Below, one piece after another: positions 59,371-64,000 of a stretch of 64,000 nucleotides of DNA. The DNA is from Streptacidiphilus rugosus AM-16 (GTDB taxonomy: Bacteria > Actinomycetota > Actinomycetes > Streptomycetales > Streptomycetaceae). The stretch is from assembly GCF_000744655.1 (NCBI RefSeq), contig NZ_JQMJ01000003.1, positions 434,001 through 498,000 of the forward strand, read 5' to 3'. The position numbers and the translations under genes were made by a program. The notes below the pieces were generated by a model. That model was not told where the DNA came from and searched no databases. It saw only the letters and a program-made list of their open reading frames with translations. Numbering within the stretch: position 1 is the stretch's first letter; the number at the start of each line of letters is the position of its first letter.

Positions 59371-59790
59371 CTAGCTCGGGTCCTCCGTGGTGGCCACGTT
59401 GTAGAAGAAGCTCACGCTGTCTTCAGGGCCGTTGTCCAGCCGCTTGAACGCCTTTCCAATCGGGTTGTAGCTGCACTTGGACGGCATCTCGACAACCATC
59501 GGCACGCCAAATACGGACGCCTCCTGCTCCGACGGCCGTCGCCAAGCCCCTCCCCCGTGACGCGTCATGACCTCCCCGATGTAGCAGCCGAAGCTAAACA
59601 TCGTCTCGGGGATGTCATCGCTCGTGGTCCCATCCTCCCGAATGCCGTCAAGGATCTCGTCCACCTGCCGGAGACTGCCCGGCGTGTAATCGAGCACGGT
59701 TCCGCTGACTCGGCCCGCCAGGGCGACTACGTCGGCCGCGAATAGCGCGGCGTTCTCCGGTTCTGCCGCGTAACTCAAGCGGAGTCGCAC
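59371..59790 (-). CDS. hypothetical protein, immunity-like
   Basis: 139 residues. VDEILDGIREDGTTSDDIPETMFSFGCYIGEVMTRHGGGAWRRPS is the best-conserved-looking part: a helical FGxYxGEVxxRHGGGxW motif shared by many small actinomycete proteins. Acidic N-terminal half. No enzyme motif. ATG or GTG start near 59790 with AGGAGGCAACG upstream. The 263 bases between this gene and the PH gene contain two direct TCTGGCACG repeats but no gene. Confidence 0.6.
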   Translation of the reverse strand: MRLRLSYAAEPENAALFAADVVALAGRVSGTVLDYTPGSLRQVDEILDGIREDGTTSDDIPETMFSFGCYIGEVMTRHGGGAWRRPSEQEASVFGVPMVVEMPSKCSYNPIGKAFKRLDNGPEDSVSFFYNVATTEDPS

Positions 59791-59861
59791 GTTGCCTCCT
59801 GGGGTCGCATACGGTGATCAGTGGGGACTGACGTTAGCTTGCGCCAGAGACAGAGCCTGAG

Positions 59862-60010
59862 TGGGGTGGTCCCTCCTCGATCGGGCAGCTTTGCCGAGCC
59901 GGGGTTCTCCCAGGGCCGCCAGGCTCACCGCGTGACCCTTGGGCTTGGCCTGGCGGCCCTGGGAGGTTCCCGGTACGCCTCCGGTGCGCGATCGAGGAGG
60001 GACCACCCCA
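59862..60010. repeat. 149-bp interrupted palindrome
   Basis: Outer arms of 22 bp (59862-59883 and 59989-60010, starting TGGGGTGGTCCCTCC) are exact complements. Inner arms of 18 bp (59907-59924 and 59948-59965, CTCCCAGGGCCGCCAGGC) are exact complements too. The unpaired segments between outer and inner arms are 23 bases on each side, so the whole is symmetric. It could fold as a long double-stemmed hairpin. It lies just left of the IS4-family insertion; no gene overlaps it. Confidence 0.85.
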
Positions 60011-60085
60011 CGACCCCCAACCCCAACCCACCACCACCGCAGCTCTCTCTGCGGAGCGTGGCCCCTCCGAGGAGGGCCGGGGTTT

Positions 60086-60098
60086 GGGGCGGAGCCCC
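60086..60098. repeat. target site duplication, left copy
   Basis: GGGGCGGAGCCCC, repeated exactly at 62182-62194 immediately outside the right terminal repeat of the IS element. Length 13 bp fits the IS4 family. The target is a GC-rich hairpin sequence. Confidence 0.8.
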
Positions 60099-60310
60099 AA
60101 TGTCGTTCTGATCAACTTCGCGGCGGGGGCTTGCCTCGTATAACAGAGGCCAAGATCCTTTCCCCGCGTACGGCCGGCTAGCCCTACGCGCACGCGGCCA
60201 GGTGTGGTCCCCGGCCTGCCTTGGGTATCACGCAGAGTTATGCCTCGGCGATGTTGCAGCGGCACGCGACGTGTAAGGATGCCCTCCTTGACCTTCGAGG
60301 AGGGCTGACA

Positions 60311-60652
60311 GTGCCGTTGCTGTTCTGGATCGGGACACCCGTCCTCGTTCTGATGTGGTCCCAGACGGCGTGCGGTGCAGCGCATCTTCGCTGGGGACGC
60401 ACTCCGACCTGGCGGATCGTGCGATGCCGATTCGAGGATCGACGCCATGTGGCCTTCTCGGCGGGACTTGCTGGCTTCATCAGCACGGGGTTCGCGACCA
60501 CTCATTCGATGCCCTGGCACGCTGACCTCGGGCAGCTGCTGCAACAGGGATCGTGGACCTGGGCAGTAGCGATGGTCACGGCAACTTCTGCATCCGCCGG
60601 CGCGACGTGGCTCGTCACACGACCGCAAGGGCAGCGCGGCCGACGAGGCTGA
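60311..60652 (+). CDS. small membrane protein, passenger of the IS element
   Basis: 113 residues from GTG 60311, with GGAGG seven bases upstream. Three hydrophobic segments (VPLLFWIGTPVLVLMW, HVAFSAGLAGFISTGFATT, WTWAVAMVTATSASAGATWLV). No recognised domain. It lies between the left terminal repeat and the transposase in the same orientation, so it moves with the element. The upstream 60117-60310 stretch holds no other gene. Confidence 0.6.
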   Translation: MPLLFWIGTPVLVLMWSQTACGAAHLRWGRTPTWRIVRCRFEDRRHVAFSAGLAGFISTGFATTHSMPWHADLGQLLQQGSWTWAVAMVTATSASAGATWLVTRPQGQRGRRG

Positions 60653-60796
60653 CCGTGGCCGCGGTGCCGAAGTGAAAGTGCCGTCACGGACAGTATCCGT
60701 CAGCGCGGCCAGCTGATTCCCCAGCAGATAGCCGCAGCGGGGAGTTCCAACTCGCCACTGACACCTCGTTTCGTCGGGTGGGGCGGGCTCGTTTGG

Positions 60797-62168
60797 GTGT
60801 GTATGGGGCATGCGTGGACAGGGCTCTCGGACCGGGTGGCGTTAGGGGAGTTGACGCAGTTCATTCCCCGGGAGCTGGTGGACGAGGCGGTTCGTGGGCG
60901 GACGCTGGATCGGTCCCGGCGGGCGGGTCCGTTGCCGATGCGGTTCGCGGTGTACTACGAGTTGGCGCTGGCGTTGTTCCCGGACCAGTCCTATGAGGAC
61001 GTGGCGGTGGATCTGACCGGTGCCGGAGCTGGCCGCTGTGGTTCCGGCGAAGTCCGCGCTGCTGGGGGCTCGCCGTCGGCTGGGTCCGGAGGCGATGCGG
61101 GCCGTGTTCGAGAGGGTGGCCGCGCCGGCTTCCTCGCCGGCGACGGTCGGCGCGTTCTGGCGGGGCCTGCGGACCTGGGCGGTGGACGGACTGCAGCTGG
61201 AAGTGCCCGACAGCACGGAGAACCGGGTGTTCTTCGGCGGCCCGACCACCCGCAACAGCGAGGGCGAGATCTTCGTGTGCGGCTACCCGCAGGCCAGGGT
61301 CGTGGTCCTGGTGGAGACCGGAACACGGGCGGTCCGTGGCGCCCGGGTCGGCACCTACCACGACGGCGAGCGCGGCCTGGCCGGGGAACTGGCCCAGTTA
61401 CTGGGACCGGGGGATCTCGTGCTGTTCGACCGGGGCTTTTCCGGCGTCGCCCTGTGGCTGGACTTCCTCGCCTCCGGGGCCGCTGTCGTCATGCGGGGCA
61501 AGTCGAACATCGCCCGAGCCCGGACGCGACCGCTTCCCGACGGCAGCTACCTCGCCGAGATGTGGGAGGACGGCCGGGTCGGGCAGGCGAACGCCGCCCA
61601 CGTCACCGTGCGGGTGATCGAGTACACCCTCGGCGGCGAGAAGATCCGCCTGTTCACCAGCCTCCTCGACGTCGAGGTCTATCCGGCCGCCGAGCTGGCG
61701 GCCCTGTACGCGGAACGCTGGCAGTGCGAGGTCGGAATCCTCCAACTGAAGGCCCTGCAGATGAAACGGGCGGCGGTCCTGCGCTCCCACCACCCCGACC
61801 AGGTCGTCCAGGAGATCTGGGCACACCTCACCCTCAACCACGCCCTCACCCGGCTGACGACGCTGATCGCCGACGCCCGCGGCCAGGACCCGGCCCGGAT
61901 CTCCTTCGTCCAAGTCCTCAAGCAAGTCCGCCGCAGCGTGATCCGCCAGCTCACCCGCACCGTCCGCGAAGCAGCCGACGCCGCCCGGGCGATAGCAGCC
62001 GACCTTCGTCGCTACCGCAATCCCAGCCGCGGCCCCCGCACCAGCGAACGCCGCGTCAAGCGCATCCGCCACCGCTTCCAAGGACGACGACCCGCCCCAC
62101 CCGGCACCCCCGTCACCACACCCACCACCCCCGCCCGCATCACCCTGCTCCCCTACCAACCCGGTTGA
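60797..62168 (+). pseudogene. IS4-family transposase, frame broken at codon 75
   Basis: DDE transposase. The 5' frame (from GTG 60797 or ATG 60803) has the IS4 N-terminal domain (LGELTQFIPRELVDEAVRGRTLDRSRRAGPLPMRFAVYYELALALFPDQSYEDVAVDLT). At 61019-61020 the reading must shift by +1 to continue as PELAAVVPAKSALLGARRRLG. The catalytic core has AVDGLQLEVPDS, LLFDRGFSGVALWL-like VLFDRGFSGV and AERWQCEVGILQLKALQM (D, D, E). A one-base deletion or sequencing error is most likely; a programmed shift is less so. TTA codons occur at 60842 and 61398, so a restored protein would need bldA. Confidence 0.8.
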
Positions 62169-62194
62169 TCAGAACGACATTGGGGCGGAGCCCC
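62164..62194. repeat. right terminal repeat and right target duplication of the IS
   Basis: Terminal repeat 62164-62181 followed directly by GGGGCGGAGCCCC (62182-62194), the second copy of the target duplication. Confidence 0.8.
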
Positions 62195-62570
62195 ATGATC
62201 TGCGGTTGGCCGGCGGACTGCTGCTGCTCCGGACCTGCGCGGTGACCTTCCTCGTGACCGTAGGCGCCGCCGCTGGCTGGCTCGACTGTTGGCGGTCCCC
62301 GCGTCCGCTCTGCGAAAAGGCTGTTGATCGCGCTCAGCGACCGCCCCTTGTGGGGGTTTGCACTGGGGTGGCTCGTCGTTGTGCGGCGGCCGCCCGCCGC
62401 CGGGCCCGGCCGAGCCTAAAAGCGGAGGCGGGCCCGAGCGGCGGGGCGGGCCGCGCCGCGCATGGCGCGGCGTGGTCGTCTTGATTCAGTAGAGAAAGTC
62501 ATCACAGCATGCTTGGCGAAGCCGGGTGTCCGGTCTCGGGTGATGCTTGACACCGCGTTCCTCGGCTTGG

Positions 62571-62894
62571 CTATTCGTCCCCGAACGCGAAGGGTTCCAC
62601 CCTCCATGGCAGCCTGGCATCGTCTCGATAGGCGGCGAAGCCGGACCGCAGTCCTGCCGTCTGCGCGATAGCGGGGTCTCTCTCGGCGATGTGGGCAAGG
62701 CAGTAGATGCCGCATGCGTCGGGGACGTTGGGGTCGTTGATTCCGTCACCCACCAGCCAGTCCCCGTCCGGGTCGTGGATCACGACCAATGCGGGCAACT
62801 CGCCGTTGGCGACGGTGCGCTGCACCACCGCCCCGAGGCTCGGCGGGAACGTGAGGCCCGTGCCAAGCATCTCCGCACCAAGTTCGTGGTCCAC
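62571..62894 (-). CDS. hypothetical protein, immunity-like
   Basis: 107 residues. GELPALVVIHDPDGDWLVGDGINDPNVPDACGIYCLAHIAERDPAI is the recognisable core, seen in small accessory proteins of streptomycetes with a VxHDxDGDWLVxDGxNDP motif. GTG 62894. It continues the minus-strand run interrupted by the IS element. The 376 bases from 62195 to 62570 hold GC-rich hairpins (for example CGCCGCGC-ATG-GCGCGGCG near 62452) but no supportable gene. Confidence 0.6.
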   Translation of the reverse strand: MDHELGAEMLGTGLTFPPSLGAVVQRTVANGELPALVVIHDPDGDWLVGDGINDPNVPDACGIYCLAHIAERDPAIAQTAGLRSGFAAYRDDARLPWRVEPFAFGDE

Positions 62895-63069: not shown

Positions 63070-64000
63070 ATGTCTGTCTACGTCGGGATCGACGTGCACC
63101 GCAAGCGGTCGCAGATCGCGGTGCTGGACGAGGAGGGCGCGGTCCGGATCAACCGGAACGTGTCCAACGGGGTGGGGACGGTGCTCGGGGTGATCGGGGA
63201 CCTGCCGATCGGCACCCCGGTCGCCTTCGAGGCCGCCTACGGCTGGGGCTGGCTGGTCGAGATGCTGGAGGACTACGGCTACCAGCCGCACCTGGTCCAC
63301 CCACTGCGGTGCAAGGCGATCGCCTCCGCGAGGCTGAAGAACGACAAGGTCGATGCCGCGACGCTGGGCCGGCTGCTGCGCGCGGACCTGCTGCCGGAGG
63401 CCTGGATCGCGCCACTGGACGTGCGGCAGCAGCGGGCCCTGCTGCGGCACCGCTTCCAGCTGGTGCGGCTGCGGACGCTGCTGCGCAACCGCATCCACGC
63501 GGTGCTCGCGGACGGGGGCCATGACCGGGCCGGCGGGTTCGCCACCGCGCCGGGGCGGGCCTGGCTCGCCGCGCTCGACCTGCCGGACGCCTCCCGCCGG
63601 GTGGTGGACGACCTCCTCATGCTGATCGACGCCATTCAGGTCCCCATCGACGCCCTGGACGCGCAACTGGCCGCGCACGCCCGCGGCGACCCCCGAGTCA
63701 AGACCCTCACCGCACTGCCCGGGGTCGGCACCCTCACCGCGCTGGTCATCATCGCCGAGGTCGGCGACGTCACCCGGTTCCCCTCGGCGCGCAAGCTCGC
63801 CTCGTGGACCGGACTCACCCCGACCGTCCGCGCCTCGGATCTCACCGTCCACCACGGGCACATCTCCAAGCAGGGCGACACCTGGCTGCGCTGGATCATG
63901 TGCGAGGCCGCCCAGACCGCGAAGCGGCACCCCGACTTCGCCGACACCTACCAGGCCATCGCGGCCCGCCGCGGCAAGAAGATCGCCACCACCGCCATCG
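63070..64000 (+). CDS. IS110-family DEDD transposase (3' end beyond the window)
   Basis: At least 310 residues. Start ATG 63070 after GGGAAGGAGG. The RuvC-like N-terminal part has YVGIDVHRKRSQIAVLDEEG (first D), FEAAYGWGWLVEMLEDYGY (E) and DKVDAATLGRLLRADLLPEAW (D-x2-D). The C-terminal transposase_20 part has LTALPGVGTLTALVIIAEVGDVTRFPSARKLASWTGLTP and ISKQGDTWLRWIMCEAAQTAKRHPDFADTYQ, containing the catalytic Ser region of IS110. No frameshift visible. Transposase IS110 works with a bridge RNA. The gene runs past position 64000. Confidence 0.92.
   Translation, partial: MSVYVGIDVHRKRSQIAVLDEEGAVRINRNVSNGVGTVLGVIGDLPIGTPVAFEAAYGWGWLVEMLEDYGYQPHLVHPLRCKAIASARLKNDKVDAATLGRLLRADLLPEAWIAPLDVRQQRALLRHRFQLVRLRTLLRNRIHAVLADGGHDRAGGFATAPGRAWLAALDLPDASRRVVDDLLMLIDAIQVPIDALDAQLAAHARGDPRVKTLTALPGVGTLTALVIIAEVGDVTRFPSARKLASWTGLTPTVRASDLTVHHGHISKQGDTWLRWIMCEAAQTAKRHPDFADTYQAIAARRGKKIATTAI

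Follow-up and report, generated by a model that had tools for sequence, protein, structure and literature searches.

A divergent, oversized and probably dead IS4-type insertion in a dispersed hairpin repeat of Streptacidiphilus rugosus AM-16

The genome of the actinomycete Streptacidiphilus rugosus AM-16 (9.0 Mb in 4 contigs) contains an IS4-type element of 2085 bp. The element lies in a window of 64,000 nucleotides (the whole stretch of DNA that was analysed), which corresponds to positions 434001-498000 of the 1.15-Mb contig C3 (NZ_JQMJ01000003.1), and spans window positions 60098-62182. It has two inverted ends, a long left arm and a transposase gene in two frames, and it interrupts the terminal palindrome of a dispersed repeat (Table 1). 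About 0.9 kb beyond the element is an ORF starting MSVYVGIDVHRKRSQIAVLDEEG (63070-64000, running off the window; L122:9071-10087), which resembles an IS110-type transposase gene.

Table 1. Features of the element and its insertion site (window positions).
Feature	Position	Strand	Basis
Copy of dispersed noncoding hairpin repeat; terminal palindrome split by the element	59855..60097	+	blastn, fold, inverted repeat
Left copy of 11-bp target duplication, GGGCGGAGCCC	60087..60097	.	Sequence; boundary from CAATG ends of relatives
Left inverted end, CAATGTCGTTCTGATCAAC	60098..60116	+	End-site search with mismatches, shuffles
Long left arm leading up to the transposase; apparently noncoding	60117..60802	+	Arm length against 30 mapped relatives; no coding signal
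11-bp hairpin whose 3' arm holds GAGGAGGG, taken as a ribosome site	60281..60305	+	RNA fold of 60270-60330
ORF earlier called a membrane-protein gene, judged no gene	60311..60652	+	Shuffle, periodicity, hydropathy and homology tests
Transposase, N-terminal part (Nterm_IS4)	60803..61018	+	Pfam PF13006, 46.1 bits; alignment with relatives
Transposase, DDE part, with net one-base shift against N-terminal part; YREK present	61020..62168	+	Pfam PF01609, 42.1 bits; NCBIfam NF033592, 161.5 bits; alignment
Right inverted end	62164..62182	-	End-site search with mismatches, shuffles
Right copy of 11-bp target duplication, GGGCGGAGCCC	62183..62193	.	Sequence

The inverted ends are perfect over 19 bp, and perfect direct repeats lie one on each side of the element. 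With up to three mismatches, the 16-base core of the ends occurs twice in the window (0.16 expected), a number reached by none of 100 shuffles. Inside the element there are no further 19-mer end sites with up to five mismatches and one end-like 18-mer site with five. The element boundaries are set at CAATG, as in relatives, and the target duplication is therefore 11 bp. A preliminary description of this DNA had given perfect terminal repeats of 18 bp, a perfect 13-bp duplication and coordinates of 60099-62181; both repeats are indeed perfect, while the ends are one base longer and the coordinates were off by one base per side. The 13-bp duplication is rejected, since its outer bases are part of the target palindrome and the ends of relatives begin with CAATG. 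This 13-base palindrome, GGGGCGGAGCCCC, is not rare by itself (at up to one mismatch, 28 of 100 window shuffles have at least two) and is meaningful because it adjoins both ends of the element. As the ends and duplication are intact, the insertion is fairly recent, in agreement with the earlier account.

Target duplications in subgroup IS4 are 10-13 bp, about one helix turn (PMC2266710), a range that includes the 11 bp found here. Of the subgroup's end consensus, -AATR--------WTW---- (PMC2266710, Table 1), the ends here match AATR and two of the three WTW bases. The element is larger than the typical 1400-1650 bp of the subgroup (PMC2266710) because of its left arm.

The repeat that received the element is 243 bp long and has 64-nt hairpin arms (59861-59924 and 59948-60011) that are 83% complementary. 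Its fold has a z-score of -9.0, and none of 200 shuffles is as low. The repeat has 23 blastn matches in its own genome, some of which are one copy matched again in the opposite orientation owing to the hairpin, and it is present in 18 of 101 family genomes (own included) at E<=1e-15. A query containing the repeat matches 23 plasmid records, and the 20 listed match the repeat part only. An unoccupied copy in the same genome (C4:2402993-2403213) ends in TTTGGGGCGGAGCCCCATG without an insert; this copy (L056) alone serves as the unoccupied site, L055 having been aligned unturned. The genome holds six occurrences of GGGGCGGAGCCCC, including the two that make up the duplicated site, against four of the backward pattern; the palindrome itself is therefore not enriched.

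Besides the copy at the element, the repeat is located at C4:540053, C4:2402993 (the unoccupied copy) and C3:305624 of the same genome and at loci L048-L053. It is also present on Streptomyces plasmids, and the gene neighbourhoods of its copies differ. In the own-genome loci L112, L113, L115 and L120, ORFs within about 2.5 kb of repeat copies look, by eye, like transposases. Among the literature matches listed for dispersed Streptomyces hairpin repeats, nothing obviously corresponds to this one.

The transposase gene identifies the element, as first described, with the IS4 family. The frame 60797-61019 matches positions 2-61 of the 95 in the Nterm_IS4 profile. Profile positions 71-95 are matched in the next frame, from 61020 (20.3 bits, under the cut-off of 25). 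That frame also matches DDE_Tnp_1 and the IS4 transposase model NF033592 (cut-off 115 bits), and it contains YAERWQCEVGILQLK, which has the spacing Y-(2)-R-(3)-E-(6)-K. The first ORF opens at GTG 60797; the start given in Table 1 was picked by alignment with relatives. The gene is split by a net one-base shift where the N-terminal part meets the DDE part, the break noted in the preliminary description, and relatives have about 5 nt more at this junction (counted by hand from sequence and alignment). The YREK residues and the absence of a frameshift are hallmarks of the IS4 family (PMC2266710). Here the N-terminal and DDE parts are in different frames rather than in a single ORF; the split is read as damage to this copy, and the element is therefore filed as a descendant of the family, not as an intact member.

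The element is a single copy in its genome, and its 18-base end, at up to one mismatch, occurs in one of 394 family genomes: its own, twice. Other DNA matches in the same genome are IS4-type stretches of 64-68% identity and one 50-base match at 81%. The best plasmid-record matches of the transposase are on Streptomyces plasmids. The comparison set consists of 48 relative loci (L002, L026-L032 and 40 others), with the own-genome fragments L003 and L004, and also locus L006, outside it. Ends are mapped in 30 of these; the remaining 18 (fragments, contig edges, distant copies) have no convincing ends and are excluded from comparisons of arm length. The transposase start is extrapolated in L085, L089 and L090, and the left end of L071 is the first base of its contig. 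Several loci come from one genome (L075, L077, L078 and L094; L082 and L083; L086 and L087) and are thus not independent. A genome-contig scan with the DDE part alone found 96 stretches matching a pattern, none of them a relative. Thirteen viral-contig loci have one match each to the 18-base end (up to three mismatches), with no second inverted end in the stretch examined. A site three mismatches from the element end, CTTGTCGTTCTGATCATC (L031:1374-1391), is 16 bases from an annotated group II intron reverse transcriptase gene and may be there by chance.

A perfect 10-bp duplication is present in 23 of the 30 relatives with mapped ends, and one target site, with arms of the type CACTTnnn(10 bp)nnnAGGTG, recurs among the relatives. 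Flanks are homologous in 13 of the 23 mapped sites (L026, L027, L030, L068-L070, L073, L074, L076, L077, L087, L088 and L094). The three of these that were scanned (L068, L074, L076) are all in ISAzo13-type transposase genes, while L086 and L100 are inserted in IS5-type transposase genes. Strong target-arm specificity is described for some elements of the IS4 subgroup (PMC2266710).

The long left arm, also remarked on at the outset, distinguishes the element from these relatives. Its transposase starts about 705 bp from the left end, compared with 40-94 bp in the 30 relatives with mappable ends; the mapping script accepted arms of up to 2.6 kb, so that a long arm in relatives would have been seen. 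To judge from the seven aligned proteins (43-46% identity), however, these relatives are different elements. The arm has a G+C content of 65.5% (70.9% in the transposase) and a fold z-score of -1.9, with 1 of 20 shuffles as low. An Rfam search of 59500-62700 gave one match only, below the cut-off and outside the element. The inverted ends and the duplication enclose the arm, which is known from one element copy. It is possible, if doubtful, that the arm is not original. It would then have entered the space before the transposase at a later time, through an insertion or a rearrangement, or would be what is left of an eroded passenger gene. Its length relative to the mapped relatives, its lower G+C content and its lack of coding signal fit such an origin. 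Against this, there is no internal site within five mismatches of the 19-mer end, no repeat was found to bound an insert, and arm DNA has no match elsewhere in the same genome, in 14 genus genomes, in 101 family genomes (E <= 1e-20) or among the best 20 of the 23 plasmid records.

The frame break looks like decay, which is the simplest reading. Forty of the 48 relative loci have a tblastn match that covers the junction, and all 40 cross it in one single-frame match. This count is a fairer comparison than the seven aligned proteins, which were taken as intact ORFs and whose single frame is therefore by choice. Broken copies are common among relatives (at least 5 of 48 match in more than one frame: L087, L088, L100, L104 and L106), yet their breaks are elsewhere, and the break point of this element is not common to them. 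Having lost its frame, this copy can probably move only with help in trans. Alternatively, the transposase could be intact in the living organism and the element active, the shift being a single-base assembly error. Perfect ends and duplication are in keeping with this alternative, as is the way in which the two parts abut with a net one-base shift. It is nonetheless unlikely: a single-base error alone does not explain a junction about 5 nt shorter than in relatives, and an active element in one copy only shows no sign of spread.

A more ambitious proposal combines the arm with the target. The element would belong to an IS4-subgroup lineage with a swappable, IS231-like module that separates left end and transposase. 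This lineage would home to a dispersed actinobacterial hairpin repeat, at its terminal palindrome, and the module would act as structured or regulatory DNA or RNA and not as a protein gene. Such a lineage would be a long shot.

The preliminary description instead placed a passenger membrane-protein gene with its own ribosome site in the arm, an arrangement that would recall some IS231 elements. The extra DNA is exactly where IS231 has its own, between left end and transposase (PMC2266710), the ORF reaches 143 aa from TTG 60221 (113 aa from GTG 60311), and GAGGAGGG is 6 nt upstream of the GTG. The properties of the ORF nevertheless make a functional gene most improbable. When the arm is shuffled with dinucleotides preserved, 507 of 2000 shuffles have an ORF of at least 143 aa on one strand or the other, and 301 of 2000 have one on the plus strand. 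Asymmetry between codon positions is matched in 336 of 1000 shuffles for the 113-aa frame and 188 of 1000 for the 143-aa frame, but in none of 1000 for the transposase parts. G+C by codon position is 0.64/0.63/0.72 in the arm ORF and 0.74/0.53/0.88 in the DDE part. No 19-residue stretch of the ORF has a mean hydropathy of 1.6, the customary cut-off (maximum 1.45), and the supposed ribosome site is within the 3' arm of an 11-bp hairpin. The ORF has no match in Pfam, in NCBIfam, among plasmids at E 0.01 or among phages at E 1, and its best PHROGs E-value is 0.39. Nor does Pfam give a match for five further ORFs within the arm or for one extending from it into the transposase start. In 394 family genomes, the ORF finds its own copy and two weak matches (31% and 32% identity, E 5.6e-4 and 6.2e-4, one genome each). 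These are at about chance level for 394 genomes and are not convincing as relatives; one sits inside an 805-aa frame. By all of these sequence measures, the left arm appears to be without a passenger gene. A rare, fast-evolving gene without relatives could still have such a composition, which counts against the explanation favoured below.

Programmed frameshifting, which had been suggested as a way for the split gene to make transposase, is hardly credible. In its favour, each part is an open frame, and that of the first part continues uninterrupted through the remainder of the element (ORF 60797-62245); no stop codon would therefore stand in the way of a shift. Against it, every one of the 40 junction-covering relatives crosses in one frame, the lack of a frameshift is a hallmark of the family, and no known slippery motif is seen by eye at the junction.

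As a whole, the locus is very probably best explained as a cut-and-paste element that derives from the IS4 family and is nearest to the IS4 subgroup, with its frame lost and a noncoding arm, inserted in the palindrome of a repeat. The cut-and-paste chemistry is taken from the family. A DDE transposase, encoded by this gene before it broke or by a related element, would have made its cuts at CAATG and inserted the ends with an 11-bp stagger into the repeat's terminal palindrome, leaving the duplication. The transposase gene of this copy is out of frame by a net one base at the border between its N-terminal and DDE domains. The left arm, about 690 bp, would be noncoding DNA that the element carries ahead of its transposase. 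Perfect ends and a perfect duplication point to recent activity. This is harder to reconcile with a dead transposase, except where the gene broke after the insertion, the shift reflects a mistake in the assembly or the enzyme had another source. That the palindrome is not enriched in the genome also counts against this explanation. The element is thus a divergent, oversized IS4-type insertion in a hairpin repeat, and probably dead.

By itself, the element matters little: one divergent, probably dead IS4-type element is added, and a spurious gene call is removed. The hairpin repeat and the entry of relatives into transposase genes of other elements are better leads. In PMC2266710, extra DNA beside the left end is known, by 2008, only from IS231; if more arm-bearing copies were found, it would also be a feature of the IS4 subgroup. 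We make no claim that such an arm is unreported; later literature is covered in part only.

The closest known systems are IS4-type elements of Streptomyces plasmids and chromosomes (e.g., L026-L031 and L067-L074; IS4 subgroup by their ends), which have the same transposase domains, YREK residues and ends that begin with CAATG. Their duplication is 10 bp rather than 11 bp, both about one helix turn. They are smaller (about 1.43-1.47 kb where the 10-bp duplication is found), and their transposase starts 40-94 bp from the left end, mostly in one frame, whereas here it starts at about 705 bp and is split. IS231 and its derivatives (passenger genes, MIC231) have extra DNA between left end and transposase and an 11-bp duplication, as here. 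The consensus target of IS231A is reportedly GGG(N)5CCC, which GGGCGGAGCCC fits. In contrast, IS231 ends begin with CAT, and its extra DNA holds putative genes (PMC2266710), while no gene is supported in this arm. ISRm22 of Sinorhizobium meliloti, an IS4-family element, enters REP palindromes (PMC1525189), and insertion into such a site therefore has precedent. Like the element described here, it is found in the G+C-rich palindrome of a dispersed intergenic repeat. ISRm22 lies in REPs in 10 of 10 cases with 6-bp repeats (PMC1525189); the present element is a single copy with an 11-bp repeat, so that no target preference is claimed.
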